From Photobacterium profundum SS9 (lineage in GTDB: Bacteria; Pseudomonadota; Gammaproteobacteria; Enterobacterales; Vibrionaceae): a stretch of DNA of 64,000 bases. Shown in pieces: positions 3,613-64,000 of this stretch. Both the position numbers and the translations under genes were made by a program. Positions within the stretch are counted from its first letter, which is position 1; each line of letters begins with the position of its first letter. The notes beneath the pieces are model-generated. The model worked only from the letters and a program-made list of their open reading frames with translations, ran no database searches and had not been told where the DNA came from. Where the stretch lies: positions 2,989,411-3,053,410 of the forward strand of contig NC_006370.1 in the NCBI RefSeq assembly GCF_000196255.1, given 5' to 3'.

Positions 3613-4626
3613 TTAATTATCGGTATTCAAACGGCGTAGTAACTGATCTTTCAAGTTTGGAGGAGTGCCTTTAATGGTCAAGGTATCGGTTTCTGCATCA
3701 TAGAAAATACGCTCACCTAATAGCATGCTGTCAAAATTAATCGACATGCCACCACCCGCACCCACAAATTTGGTCAATTTACGCATCGCAGTACGATCAG
3801 CAGGAAAGCTTTCTTCTAGTTCGTAGCCCTGCTTTGACGTGAATTCATAAAAATTAGTGCCGTCTTCTGCTGGTGGTAATTCACCCGCCAATTCTTTAAC
3901 CGCCACTTCATCGCCAGCTTGTAATTGACCATTACAATAATCATAAACTTGCTTGCGGTATTGTTGCTTCTCTTCTTTATCAAGACGAGAATCAGCACAA
4001 AAATCTTCAACAGCTTGCATCAAGACTTGATTTTGTTCTTTTGCATCAAGACCAACAACAGCTTGCAGAAAATCAAGGAAGAAATCTGAAATTTTTCGTC
4101 CTACACGCCCTTTAATGAACGTTAGGTAACGATTTGAATCCGAATTCGTCTCCCATGATGATAAATCAATGCGGGCAACAATATCCATTTTAGCGACATC
4201 AAGATAATCGGTGGCGCTGATGTCTAATTGCTCAGTCACTTTCATGCTGTGGCAAGTTGGCAACAAACCAATAAATAGATAATCAGTTGCTAGTGATTGG
4301 TATTCTGCCATCACCAACGTACCCGCTTCAGCGAAGGGATATTTTGCTAATTCAACCTGTAAACGCTGGGCTGATTGGTTAGAAAAAGTTACAAAATCCA
4401 TTTCGCCAGTACGATATTGTTTCAACCAATGACAAAATTCACTGTCTTCAGCAAAGAGAGCGAAGCCTTTTGCCCCTTTACTGCTGTATACTCGATGCAA
4501 TTCGGCAACGAGACCTTCGGTAGAAGAATCGGCGTCAAGCACCTGATTTCTTAGATTAATTTCGATTTCATCTTGATCGTTTTTTGTCAGCTGATGAAGG
4601 ATGACATTAGAAAGTGTAAGACTCAT
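3613..4626 (-). CDS. yejK: Nucleoid-associated protein YejK (NdpA)
   Basis: A 337-residue member of the 37-kDa nucleoid-associated protein family (YejK/NdpA), the usual family length. Family-typical features are the N-terminal VILHQLTKNDQDEIEINLR, the central RYLTFIKGRVGRKISDFF and the C-terminal RKLTKFVGAGGGMSINFD. E. coli YejK associates with the chromosome and has been linked to topoisomerase function. It is transcribed away from yejL-yejM across an 89-bp gap, the same head-to-head arrangement as in enterobacteria. No defects are visible. Confidence 0.93.
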   Translation of the reverse strand: MSLTLSNVILHQLTKNDQDEIEINLRNQVLDADSSTEGLVAELHRVYSSKGAKGFALFAEDSEFCHWLKQYRTGEMDFVTFSNQSAQRLQVELAKYPFAEAGTLVMAEYQSLATDYLFIGLLPTCHSMKVTEQLDISATDYLDVAKMDIVARIDLSSWETNSDSNRYLTFIKGRVGRKISDFFLDFLQAVVGLDAKEQNQVLMQAVEDFCADSRLDKEEKQQYRKQVYDYCNGQLQAGDEVAVKELAGELPPAEDGTNFYEFTSKQGYELEESFPADRTAMRKLTKFVGAGGGMSINFDSMLLGERIFYDAETDTLTIKGTPPNLKDQLLRRLNTDN

Positions 4627-21673: not shown

Positions 21674-21684
21674 TATACCCAAGC
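21674..21684. repeat. Left end of repeat family 1, copy A (split by the IS)
   Basis: TATACCCAAGC is the left terminal sequence of the 265-bp repeat, cut by insertion of the IS4-family element. Its last nine bases (21676-21684) are duplicated at 23045-23053, where the repeat resumes. Confidence 0.85.
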
Positions 21685-23044
21685 CTGAGGGATCCCCACA
21701 AAATATTCATCATAGTAGATCCTCCATGCTAACTGCTAGCTCTGATAAATGAGCTAGCACGTAAACATATTCATCTATCGTTATGGTATATCTGCCGTCT
21801 TTTACAACTTCTCGACCAATGTAAATCGTGGATAATACTGCCCGATATTTAAGTGAATTAGCTTGTAGTGAATAATGAATTTTTTTCATTACCGCGGCTC
21901 TTCCAACGCACCAGATGATAAATAAGATCAACCCTGCAATAAGAAGTAAATTGTCAAACCTTTCCACTGATTTTGAATTTGCATATTCTAAACTTATGCC
22001 CAGCTTGCCATTTTTAGTATCTCTAAAATTCTCTTCTATCTGCATTCGTTGACGGTACAGTGATACCGCGATGTTTGCGTTATTTTTGTATCTCGGAGGG
22101 AGCTTGAAAACCAGTAACCATGCTTCATTAGCGTCTTTTTCATGCGTTTTATCGGTTGTTCTTTGCGAAACCCCACCTCGCTTTTTTTTAGCACTACGCC
22201 CCTTTTTATTCCGCTTAAATAATACGCCTTCACACTTAAATTTAGCGACCTTACCGTAGTAAAGTACACCAAGATGCTCAGCTTTGTTTACCTTCGCGGC
22301 CTTGAACCATTGATAGCTTGTGTACCAGGTTTCCTTATCTTGAGATAGTGAGACTTGCCCTCGTACTCGGCCAATCCAATACCAACCTTTTAACTCTACG
22401 GCTTTAAACCAAGGTGACCGATAGATAGCATCTGTTGTGATGACGGGCTGGCATCCTTCAGGCAGCACTTGCTCTAACTCATCTAAGAAACTCTGGTGGG
22501 CTTTTTCTGTGTTGAGTTCACTTTCATGGAATGTTTTTTCATATAAAACTAACCCTCTCCCTTGCATTGGAATGCTCGCCCTCAAGAGTTGATAGATTTC
22601 CTGACCATTAATTGGAGACCAATCGATTAAAATAATAGGGTGCTTTTCTCTTCCAATTAATTGCTCGGTCATATACTCGTAGTAGTCATGACGCTCACAG
22701 TGTAAGTGTGCATTACCAATAAGGCGATCGGCTCGCTTAATGTCATGTTTTTTTGTGGTCACAGAGCCTGACTCTAAGCCTCGACCTAGATAAGTCACTG
22801 ATACTCTTTGGTCTTTAATCCCAGACTCAATAAAAGTACAAAGTGTCTTTAACCGTGAGGAGTGAATTTGAGGGTAGTATGAACGAAGATCTTGGTATAG
22901 AATTTCAGTTGCTTTCATGGCTATGCAAATTTGACGTTTATGGTGAATGTTCTGATCTCAATTAGCCATGAAAGTTTCATTTCACCTAAAAAAACTCACT
23001 TATCTTCTTATTGAAAACTCATCAATTTCGTGGGGATTCGTCAG
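21685..23044 (-). mobile_element. Intact IS4-family insertion sequence, 1360 bp
   Basis: The ends are imperfect 20-bp inverted repeats, 17 of 20 matching: CTGAGGGATCCCCACAAAAT (21685-21704) and the complement of the right end at 23025-23044. The element is flanked by 9-bp direct repeats TACCCAAGC (21676-21684 and 23045-23053), a target-site duplication. It contains a single full-length transposase gene. The target lies inside a dispersed intergenic repeat, so no gene was disrupted. Intact gene, matching ends and perfect duplication indicate a fairly recent insertion. Confidence 0.93.
21710..22918 (-). CDS. IS4-family DDE transposase
   Basis: A 402-residue transposase filling most of the 1360-bp element. 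The DDE residues are visible: first Asp in PIILIDWSPI (about residue 99), second Asp in VITTDAIYRSPWF (about 162), and the Glu in YRQRMQIEENFRDTK. That last segment fits the IS4 signature Y-x2-R-x3-E-x6-K exactly. A Lys/Arg-rich insert (KRNKKGRSAKKKRGG, about 236-250) lies between the Asp motifs and the YREK motif, in or near the insertion-domain position. The reading frame is uninterrupted, so it is probably functional. Confidence 0.95.
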   Translation of the reverse strand: MKATEILYQDLRSYYPQIHSSRLKTLCTFIESGIKDQRVSVTYLGRGLESGSVTTKKHDIKRADRLIGNAHLHCERHDYYEYMTEQLIGREKHPIILIDWSPINGQEIYQLLRASIPMQGRGLVLYEKTFHESELNTEKAHQSFLDELEQVLPEGCQPVITTDAIYRSPWFKAVELKGWYWIGRVRGQVSLSQDKETWYTSYQWFKAAKVNKAEHLGVLYYGKVAKFKCEGVLFKRNKKGRSAKKKRGGVSQRTTDKTHEKDANEAWLLVFKLPPRYKNNANIAVSLYRQRMQIEENFRDTKNGKLGISLEYANSKSVERFDNLLLIAGLILFIIWCVGRAAVMKKIHYSLQANSLKYRAVLSTIYIGREVVKDGRYTITIDEYVYVLAHLSELAVSMEDLL

Positions 23045-23308
23045 TACCCAAGCTACCTCAAGATGCAGGATTCAGAGTGATCTCAGCGTATTTAATTCAA
23101 GGAAAATGTGTGTAGGAATGGCATTCCCTTTCAAGCACATTTGACACAGAAGTAGATACGCTGAATCACTCCCGAAGGGCGAGTTTTGTTGGGCTCTATG
23201 CGGCGTTGCTCATTTTCAACGTAGGACCACTAGGTCTATAAATGAGCGCCTAGCCTACAGCTCAACAAATTCTCGCTGAAACGAGCATCTTGAGGTTACT
23301 TGGGTATA
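23045..23308. repeat. Repeat family 1, copy A (main part)
   Basis: The rest of a 266-bp MITE-like repeat whose first 11 bp lie left of the IS. It ends in CTTGGGTATA, the inverse of its left end. Internal stems: 23075-23094 with 23153-23171; TTTGTTGGGCT with AGCTCAACAAA; GCTCATTT with AAATGAGC. Compared with copies at 51.8 and 57.8 kb, paired positions change together. No open reading frame of note. Confidence 0.88.
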
Positions 23309-36999: not shown

Positions 37000-37049
37000 G
37001 TTTTATTCTCGCTGAAACGAGCATCTTAAGGTAACTTGGGTATATACCC
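37000..37049. repeat. Partial end of repeat family 1
   Basis: Matches only the right terminal ~45 bp of the 265-bp repeat (CTCGCTGAAACGAGC... CTTGGGTATA, ending at 37044). It continues into a perfect palindrome GGGTATATACCC (37038-37049), as if two repeat ends met or the repeat was cut back. It lies about 45 bp before the NAD(P)-binding protein gene. Confidence 0.75.
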
Positions 37050-41998: not shown

Positions 41999-42058
41999 TA
42001 TACCCAAGTTACCTCAAGATGCTCGTTTCAGCGAGAATTTTGAGGTAGCTTGGGTATA
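41999..42058. repeat. Short (60-bp) member of repeat family 1
   Basis: This is a minimal form made only of the two ends of the 265-bp repeat, TATACCCAAGTTACCTCAAG... and ...CTTGGGTATA, joined through CTCGTTTCAGCGAG. It forms a long near-perfect hairpin. It lies in the 405-bp gap 41712-42116, which otherwise holds A/T-rich sequence with the TM2 gene promoter. Confidence 0.85.
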
Positions 42059-51703: not shown

Positions 51704-51726
51704 TATACTCAAGCTACTTGGGTATA
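51704..51726. repeat. Minimal palindrome from repeat family 1 ends
   Basis: TATACTCAAGCTACTTGGGTATA joins a left end and a right end of repeat family 1 almost directly. It lies about 30 bp before menF and 87 bp from full copy B. Confidence 0.6.
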
Positions 51727-51812: not shown

Positions 51813-52077
51813 TATACCCAAGTCACCTCAAGATCCAGGATTCAGAGTGACCTCAACGTGTTTAATTCAAGGAAAATGTGTGTAGGAATGGCATTCCCTT
51901 TCAAACACATTTGACACAGAAGTAAACACGTTGAGTCACTCCCGAAGGGCGAGTTTTATTGGGCTCTAAACGGCGTTGCTAATTTTCAACGTAGAACCCT
52001 AGGTCTATAAATTAGCGCCTTGCCTAAAGCCCAATAAATTCTCGCTGAAACGAGCATCTTGAGGTAACTTGGGTATA
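51813..52077. repeat. Repeat family 1, copy B (265 bp, intact)
   Basis: Terminal inverted repeats TATACCCAAGTCACCTCAAG and ...CTTGAGGTAACTTGGGTATA. Internal stems: 51845-51864 with 51923-51941; 51874-51881 with 51905-51912, capped by GGAATGGCATTCC; 51955-51965 with 52028-52038 (perfect 11 bp); 51978-51985 with 52009-52016. It lies between divergent menF and alaA. The following 52078-52485 holds the alaA promoter and no other recognisable feature. Confidence 0.9.
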
Positions 52078-57757: not shown

Positions 57758-58023
57758 TATACCCAAGTTACCTCAAGATGCTCGTTTCAGCGAGAGTTTA
57801 TTGGGCTCTAGGCAAGGCGCTAATTTATAGACGTAGTGATTCTACATTGAAAATTAGCAACACCGCATAAAGTCCAATAAAACTCGCCCTTAGGGAGTGA
57901 CTCAGCGTGTCTACTTCTGTGTCAAATATGCTTGAAAGGGAACGCCATTCCTACACATATTTTCCTTAAATTAAACACGCTGAGATTACTCTGAACCCTG
58001 CATTTTGAGGTAGCTTGGGTATA
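57758..58023. repeat. Repeat family 1, copy C (266 bp, inverted orientation)
   Basis: A full-length copy in the opposite orientation to copies A and B. Its complement shows the same stems: CAGCGTGTTTA with TAGACACGCTG; TTTATTGG with CCAATAAA; GCTAATTT with AAATTAGC. It lies between the DUF1971 gene and the 59-codon ORF. Confidence 0.88.
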
Positions 58024-63861: not shown

Positions 63862-63896
63862 ATGCTTCTCTCTTCCTTTTGGTCTCTTTAATGAGT

Positions 63897-63924
63897 ATAT
63901 GGGGGTAACCCACTATTATTCAAC
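63897..63924 (-). promoter_or_regulatory. Sigma-32 (heat shock) promoter of lon
   Basis: On the minus strand GTTGAAT (63918-63924), 13 bp, then CCCCATAT (63897-63904) matches the sigma-32 consensus; the -10 is exact. It is very like the E. coli lon promoter. It lies 36 bp before the lon start. Confidence 0.85.
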
Positions 63925-63943
63925 GGGAGAAGTAACAGAAAAC

Positions 63944-63972
63944 AAAAAAGGAGGCAAAAGCCTCCTTTTTTT
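63944..63972. terminator. Terminator upstream of lon (for the gene to the right)
   Basis: AAAAAAGGAGGC-AAAA-GCCTCCTTTTTT, a near-perfect stem with A- and T-runs. It probably ends the preceding minus-strand gene (clpX by usual gene order; not visible). Confidence 0.85.
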
Positions 63973-64000
63973 ATTCATTATGTGCAGTTATTAGACACTT

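Follow-up and report, generated by a model that had tools for sequence, protein, structure and literature searches.

Compensatory changes in the fold of a long two-hairpin ERIC-type MITE from Photobacterium profundum and its relatives

Introduction

Why should a small mobile element without a transposase gene keep a long palindromic fold while its sequence changes? The question is raised by an intergenic repeat of about 265 bp in Photobacterium profundum SS9, three full copies of which lie in the window studied here, the whole stretch of 64,000 nucleotides that was analysed (contig NC_006370.1, positions 2,989,411 to 3,053,410). MITEs are usually viewed as two ends and a dispensable middle. 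The original prediction, made from the sequence alone, was that the stems of this repeat are preserved by compensatory changes between copies, that this implies either selection on a folded RNA or DNA cruciform or a copying process acting on hairpins, and that ordinary decaying MITEs should not show such a pattern. We collected copies from this and other genomes, derived a common fold and followed the gain and loss of pairing along trees of the copies.

Results

Copies in the window

Copies A, B and C were all found in the sequence at the predicted places (Table 1), and the stem differences quoted for them can be read there: CAGCGTAT/ATACGCTG in A is CAACGTGT/ACACGTTG in B and CAGCGTGT/ACACGCTG in C, TTTGTTGG/CAACAAA stands against TTTATTGG/CAATAAA, and GCTCATTT/AAATGAGC against GCTAATTT/AAATTAGC.

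Table 1. Coordinates of the element, its parts and its derivatives in the window
Feature	Position	Strand	Basis or comment
Copy A, full-length element split by an IS	21674..23308 (= 21674-21684 + 23045-23308)	+	
IS within copy A	21685..23044	-	402-aa DDE_Tnp_1 transposase at 21710-22918
Lone right end of the element (TTCTCGCTGAAACGAGCATCTTAAGGTAACTTGGGTATA)	37006..37044	+	
60-bp internal-deletion derivative	41999..42058		Both ends retained
Remnant, two fused end halves (TATACTCAAGCTACTTGGGTATA)	51704..51726		
Copy B, full-length element	51813..52077	+	Sequence read
Copy B, left terminal inverted repeat, 24 bp	51813..51836	+	
Copy B, hairpin 1 (HP1)	51845..51941	+	Structure and covariation; wobble mostly tolerated as + strand
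Copy B, conserved mini hairpin CC-GAA-GG between HP1 and HP2	51942..51948	+	95.8% of cells paired
Copy B, hairpin 2 (HP2)	51949..52045	+	Structure and covariation
Copy B, right terminal inverted repeat	52054..52077	-	
Copy C, full-length element, inverted	57758..58023	-	

The IS that splits copy A is flanked by a 9-bp duplication, TACCCAAGC, read in the sequence. Being an insertion inside a copy it is a passenger and was rejected as the mobiliser, as was, on the same grounds, an IS66 at another locus (L084). Copies B and C are overlapped by no ORF of at least 100 aa, and the sole such ORF in copy A belongs to the inserted IS; a transposase gene inside the element is absent, as the definition of a MITE requires. 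Taken as RNA, copy B has a better fold than all 200 of its dinucleotide-shuffled versions, whichever strand is taken (z -11.6 and -13.1), and its HP1 contains an inner 8-bp stem and a conserved internal loop with the sides CAAGG and GAC.CAGAA. At the Rfam gathering score the copies have no match, and copy B gives two sub-threshold miRNA matches (E 0.68 and 0.8). Elsewhere in the window, the Rfam sraA small RNA matches at 63885-63979 with 70.5 bits.

Fold and covariation

To derive the structure, a strand-neutral method that uses Watson-Crick pairs only was applied to 164 full-length copies (255-320 bp) in 12 genomes. The structure comprises 91 pairs, arranged as a 24-bp end stem, pairs 29-32/235-238, hairpin 1 (33-129), a mini hairpin (130-136) and hairpin 2 (137-234). 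Pairs 50-53/110-113 were added later, prompted by a significant covarying pair there, which raised the total to 95. The test alignment kept 184 of 201 copies (length 255-272, no ambiguous base), and 110 of these were below 97% identity. Among the 110 copies at least two Watson-Crick types occur at 68 of the 95 pairs and all four types at 32.

In 24 diverse copies 91.1% of the cells of the 95 pairs are paired, a percentage that favours the structure as it was derived from the same and other copies, compared with 28-43% when the partners are slid by 1-3 columns. Doubly changed pair cells in these copies number 375, against 118 (sd 8.3) in shuffled and 70-90 in slid comparisons, and 0 of 500 shuffles attain any of five covariation measures. 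Relatedness alone can beat shuffles, and the slid partners and a tree-based null therefore weigh more. Against 60 null alignments of the 110 copies, made in R-scape fashion with the tree preserved, seven of the column pairs at least 4 apart were significant (E < 0.05): six lie within the 91-pair fold, and the seventh, 51-112, belongs to a stem extending hairpin 1. On the tree of the 110 copies about 191 double changes from one Watson-Crick pair to another share a branch, compared with 5-9 for slid partners; most of the covariation is found on internal branches.

The excess of doubly changed cells upholds the claim that the stems are preserved by compensatory changes, and the check suggested with that claim, an R-scape-style test of a family-wide alignment, came out in its favour with the seven covarying pairs. 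The broader alternative of selection on the fold or a hairpin-copying process likewise survives the 184-copy alignment and the slid comparison of double changes. What was said of ordinary decaying MITEs holds only in part: the compensation is real, yet the element is itself a MITE (ERIC type, IS630-associated) and its single copies lose pairs. A homology of HP1 (+) with HP2 (-) was considered and rejected, the alignment score being 22.9 (sd 7.1) against 19.9 (sd 4.1) when shuffled, despite shared CAAGG and ACAC-like internal loops.

Distribution of the family

The exact end pattern TATACCCAAGN3CCTCAAGATGC has 104 + 94 = 198 matches in the SS9 genome (6.40 Mb, three contigs) and its reversed control has 0; BLAST gave 307 candidates in this genome, 40 of which were scored. 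Matches to the element were present in 18 of 40 genomes, SS9 included. A scan of species genomes gave at least 118 stretches with the 24-base end pattern, and those among the matches listed belong to Photobacterium, Vibrio, Pseudoalteromonas, Colwellia, Shewanella, Moritella, Motilimonas, Alkalimonas, Rheinheimera, Psychromonas, Thaumasiovibrio, Enterovibrio, Photorhabdus, Buttiauxella, one Legionella and other Gammaproteobacteria. At least 48 end pairs in the listed stretches are 255-290 bp apart, 37 of them additional to the copies already collected, and full-length forms among the matches listed come from Photobacterium, Vibrio, Motilimonas, Pseudoalteromonas, Colwellia, Shewanella, Alkalimonas and Thaumasiovibrio. 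Full-length homologues measure 263-268 bp across several genera, with a lowest pairwise identity of 44%, and 149 of 187 end pairs in the first set span 265-268 bp. Four 283-bp matches in one genome (G016; L167, L171, L172 and L173) exceed the standard 266 by about 17 bp and form a subtype. Legionella massiliensis has an exact 24-base end match (L232:2593-2616), and an end-pattern search of its 8-kb stretch gave no partner end.

The element occurs in 4 of 72,556 plasmid records, three of which exceed 850 kb and are perhaps second chromosomes; no phage record matched. When 61 copies from SS9 were compared there was no identical pair (median nearest neighbour 97.4%), and current activity is therefore doubtful.

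Ends of the element and their relation to IS630

SS9 carries 10 copies of one IS630 type and 3 of another, with transposases that are 60% identical and match NF033545 at 236 and 246 bits. Their ends read TATACCCGTGATCATTGAA(A/G)(A/G)TGC and TATACCCANTC(A/T)ACTT(C/G)AA(A/G)ATGC. The end frame of the element was found at both ends, with at most 3 mismatches, in all 13 IS630 copies examined (13 of 35 DDE_3 matches in this genome), while the background at the same stringency was 11 matches in 199,836 strand-bases of 30 RNase P loci. By eye, the two ends of the element both resemble the transposase-distal IS630 end. An IS630-type copy in Photorhabdus heterorhabditis (L223:6648-7748), with its transposase in two frames, has one end that is the exact 24-base pattern of the element. 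Used as a query, this piece matched 14 of 60 genomes, with no match to that IS630 type in the element-bearing G007, G009, G016, G021 and G023, and its stretch matched 11 of 72,556 plasmid records, none covering 80% and ten matching at most 43 bases at one end. Co-occurrence gave no clear link, as an IS630 match of at least 50% identity was present in 4 of the 18 genomes that carry the element and in 2 of the remaining 22.

Matches to empty sites numbered four, of which three were usable; between their flanks stand CA, T or TAGA, a spacing that is consistent with a TA-like target without being proof of one. Full copies at L096:1000-1265 (SS9) and L048:1501-1766 (G015) lie at different points of one stretch conserved in two species, so that each is the other's empty site, one of them only roughly aligned. 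Judged from the ends, it is likely that the element is mobilised by IS630. A link between ERIC and IS630 is not new and had been in print before: the available part of PMC6267812 connects the ERIC-like MITEPlu5 with CCC-type IS630 elements in 2018.

Comparison with known systems

The closest relatives in form are the ERIC sequences (IRU, RU-1; MITEEc1, and MITEPlu5 in Photorhabdus), which share with the element the end frame TATACCC-N7-TTCAAG-N-TGC; set against the ERIC sequence given in part of PMC2759123, the frame TATACCC-N7-TTCAAGNTGC is present in the element. Like ERIC, the element is mostly intergenic, lacks a transposase, has a palindromic fold and occurs in many copies. ERIC is 123-127 bp long with one hairpin and its own core, whereas the element measures about 265 bp, forms two long hairpins and differs in its core, so that a length of about 127 bp, a single long hairpin and the ERIC core sequence are not found in it. 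By eye, the two IS630 end types are each represented once in ERIC, whereas both ends of the element are of the transposase-distal type. A Photorhabdus ERIC copy had no match in the SS9 genome among the 7 of 23 candidates that were scored. In 19 ERIC copies at least two Watson-Crick types occur at 19 of 34 pairs, and RNAz consensus folds of ERIC are already published (PMC2267715, in the portion available). Both forms occur in Vibrio litoralis, where a 267-bp element (L303:2477-2743) lies about 1.1 kb from a 128-bp ERIC-like copy (3817-3944), and an ERIC copy of Buttiauxella noackiae (L245:2820-2946) has one end with the TATACCCAAGTTACTTCAAGATGC sequence of the long element, a mixed form.

The CCC-type IS630 elements ISPlu3, ISPlu8 and ISPlu19 have a terminal TATACCC and a similar subterminal block, as the element does, the likeness being seen at the ends only; IS630 elements are about 1.1 kb long with a transposase gene, whereas the element has none. 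REPIN/RAYT systems likewise consist of short mobile DNA with hairpins, present in many copies, and their mobility is affected by structure, while the ends of the element are like those of DDE-type IS630 elements and unlike those of REP transposases. RUP of Streptococcus pneumoniae, about 107 bp long, is small and non-autonomous as the element is, and is likened to it by mode of working, not sequence. The sources, each available in part, describe RUP as a proposed user of IS630-Spn1 (PMC2229807) and CCC-type IS630 elements as having a TA target (PMC6267812).

Gain and loss of pairs along the tree

On the tree of 182 unique copies the terminal branches carry 353 pair losses against 66 double changes. 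Shorter internal branches carry 107 losses against 43 double changes, and internal branches longer than 0.1 carry 45 against 87. Expressed as net pairs lost per paired substitution, in branch bins of 0-.01,.01-.02,.02-.04,.04-.08 and >.08, the net loss at tips is 0.61, 0.58, 0.55, about 0.24-0.25 and 0.05, compared with 0.38, -0.10, 0.06, -0.02 and 0.00 on internal branches. The contrast holds over.01-.08 in 12 bootstrap trees (tips 251 losses and 58 gains, internal 63 and 64) and in a tree built from unpaired columns only (tips 249 and 61, internal 60 and 57).

Compensatory pairs could also arise without selection if one arm of a hairpin were copied onto the other by template switching (quasi-palindrome correction) in replication. 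When uniform arm correction was simulated and scored with parsimony, part of the contrast between tips and internal branches did arise, but tips lost only 0.02-0.28 over seven settings, below the values observed in the.01-.02 and.02-.04 bins, while the tip loss observed in the.04-.08 bin equals that of uniform correction (0.25-0.28). Internal branches, too, lose pairs in the shortest bin (0.38), which counts against the idea that they hold their pairing. Simulated residents that are fully neutral overshoot in both.01-.04 bins (0.79-0.94). The best squared deviation over four net-loss bins is 0.288 for uniform correction and 0.256 for neutral residents, so the two fits are about equally bad. 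Arm copying also accords with 18 short derivatives of 48-172 bp that keep both ends and have lost one or both hairpins: their junctions have 0-6 bp of microhomology (n=18; three fit the best parent with at least 15 mismatches), compatible with hairpin slippage and with single-strand hairpins in vivo. It should, however, erase internal loops and bulges, which persist in an alignment reaching 44% identity, and as the whole explanation we consider arm copying unlikely.

We read the data as lying between the uniform and neutral-resident models, with either weak maintenance in residents or tips that hold some propagating time, as incomplete sampling of the copies would allow; selection may also be combined with a degree of arm correction. 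Since uniform correction under-predicts the loss at tips and neutral residents over-predict it, we favour the reading that the fold is selected in spreading lineages, and regard it as probable, not proved.

Strand preference of the hairpins

A fold selected in one strand can be distinguished from one selected in both by comparing G-U with A-C mismatches. Over all 95 pairs the single changes are equal, 157 to G-U and 153 to A-C, as expected if selection acted on both strands of a DNA cruciform or double-strand palindrome, which could serve supercoiling, end pairing or protein binding. By helix, entries to G-U and A-C number 86 and 41 in HP1 (p.002), 38 and 54 in HP2 (p.25) and 33 and 59 in the end stem (p.04); a preference for G-U in all helices was looked for and is seen in HP1, not in HP2 or the end stem, the latter two being again in line with a cruciform. 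The same method applied to RNase P of relatives, with minus-strand loci turned, gave 54 to G-U and 14 to A-C (28 of 30 loci; L364 left out, L373 skipped for length), with 25 to 10 for 14 genus sequences and 25 to 14 (p.23) for a structure predicted on the wrong strand. Like for like, the G-U:A-C ratio of 2.1 in HP1 is lower than the 3.8 of RNase P.

On internal branches HP1 has 26.6 changes to G-U and 7.7 to A-C (13 pairs vs 1, p.001), and HP2, on the main tree, has 7.5 and 18.5 (1 vs 9, p.05); the contrast of the two hairpins gives p.0004. Changes in loops are near 1:1 (59:67 and 92:89), which argues against mutation bias. Corresponding values are 27.3 and 8.2 for HP1 and 7.7 and 16.2 for HP2 in 12 bootstrap trees, and 31.0 and 7.6 for HP1 and 10.4 and 12.2 for HP2 on a loop-only tree. 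A strong strand claim for HP2 was rejected, as its A-C excess in the main and bootstrap trees is absent on the loop-only tree. In the 110 copies, G-U and A-C cells number 222 and 53 in HP1, 63 and 89 in HP2 and 71 and 93 in the end stem, and the + strand RNA is the better fold for HP1 in 95.5% and for HP2 in 53.6%.

From these counts HP1 resembles a structure formed by the + strand alone, while HP2 could be either strand or a cruciform. The G-U excess of HP1, similar in direction to that of RNase P, speaks against a cruciform as the selected form, which is distinctly unlikely, and it is also at odds with arm copying, which predicts no strand preference.

Gene surroundings and transcription

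Simple ORF calls of at least 90 aa were present on both sides of 159 of the 164 copies, and three of the 164 overlap an ORF call. Relative to the flanking genes, 47 copies are ++, 40 --, 30 convergent and 42 divergent, without clear bias, and there is no clear sign that orientation is set by flanking transcription. In the accessible part of a P. profundum RNA-seq study 150 of 460 putative sRNAs lie in repeated regions, their identity with the element not being seen in that part (PMC3505737), and a further study, likewise available in part, describes large transcribed intergenic regions (PMC4019646); transcription of the copies is therefore possible. That copies serve the host at each site, by providing flanking transcripts with RNA terminators, stabilisers or RNase sites, and are conserved for that reason, would agree with these sRNAs and with the effect of yersinial ERIC on mRNA levels described in parts of PMC2229807, PMC2267715 and PMC10969869, but is improbable given the lack of clear orientation bias, the loss of pairs on terminal branches, i.e. 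in resident copies, and the finding of only 4 common insertion sites among incompletely sampled copies from three close species.

Discussion

New here are the 265-bp two-hairpin form and a pairing that is lost on terminal branches and held on most internal ones; in the open-access literature we found neither this form described nor ERIC-type MITEs tested for covariation, an absence that is weakly supported. On balance, and by a little, we believe that the element is a long two-hairpin ERIC-type MITE, mobilised by IS630, whose fold is selected during spread. IS630-family transposases would move it in trans, at TA-like targets. Resident copies would drift with little constraint, and copies with an intact fold would seed most new copies, so that the fold would be a cis requirement or an advantage for spread. 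Its likeliest form would be a single-strand structure, either RNA of the element or single-stranded DNA exposed during replication or transposition, with HP1 acting as the + strand. The hairpins may, for example, shield the ends from traffic, recruit a host factor or transposase, or join the two ends. One folded RNA of the whole element predicts the bias of HP1 in HP2 and the end stem too, and this counts against the account. The narrower proposal that HP1 is a working structured nucleic acid (RNA, or single-stranded DNA of one defined strand) needed in cis for spread is tentative, and we would sooner doubt it than accept it.

The middle of the element holds its size and fold to 44% identity over several genera. 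The matched mutations in spreading lineages suggest that the fold itself helps the element to spread, and that it is the spreading lineage, not the site, to which the fold is important. If this is true, the propagation of a MITE depends on its fold and not on its ends alone, perhaps as a property of the whole ERIC superfamily. The old puzzle of ERIC-type elements, why a parasite keeps a palindrome, would then become a direct experiment with a candidate transposase, and the many natural variants in each genome would offer a means to tell selection on RNA, single-stranded DNA and cruciform apart.
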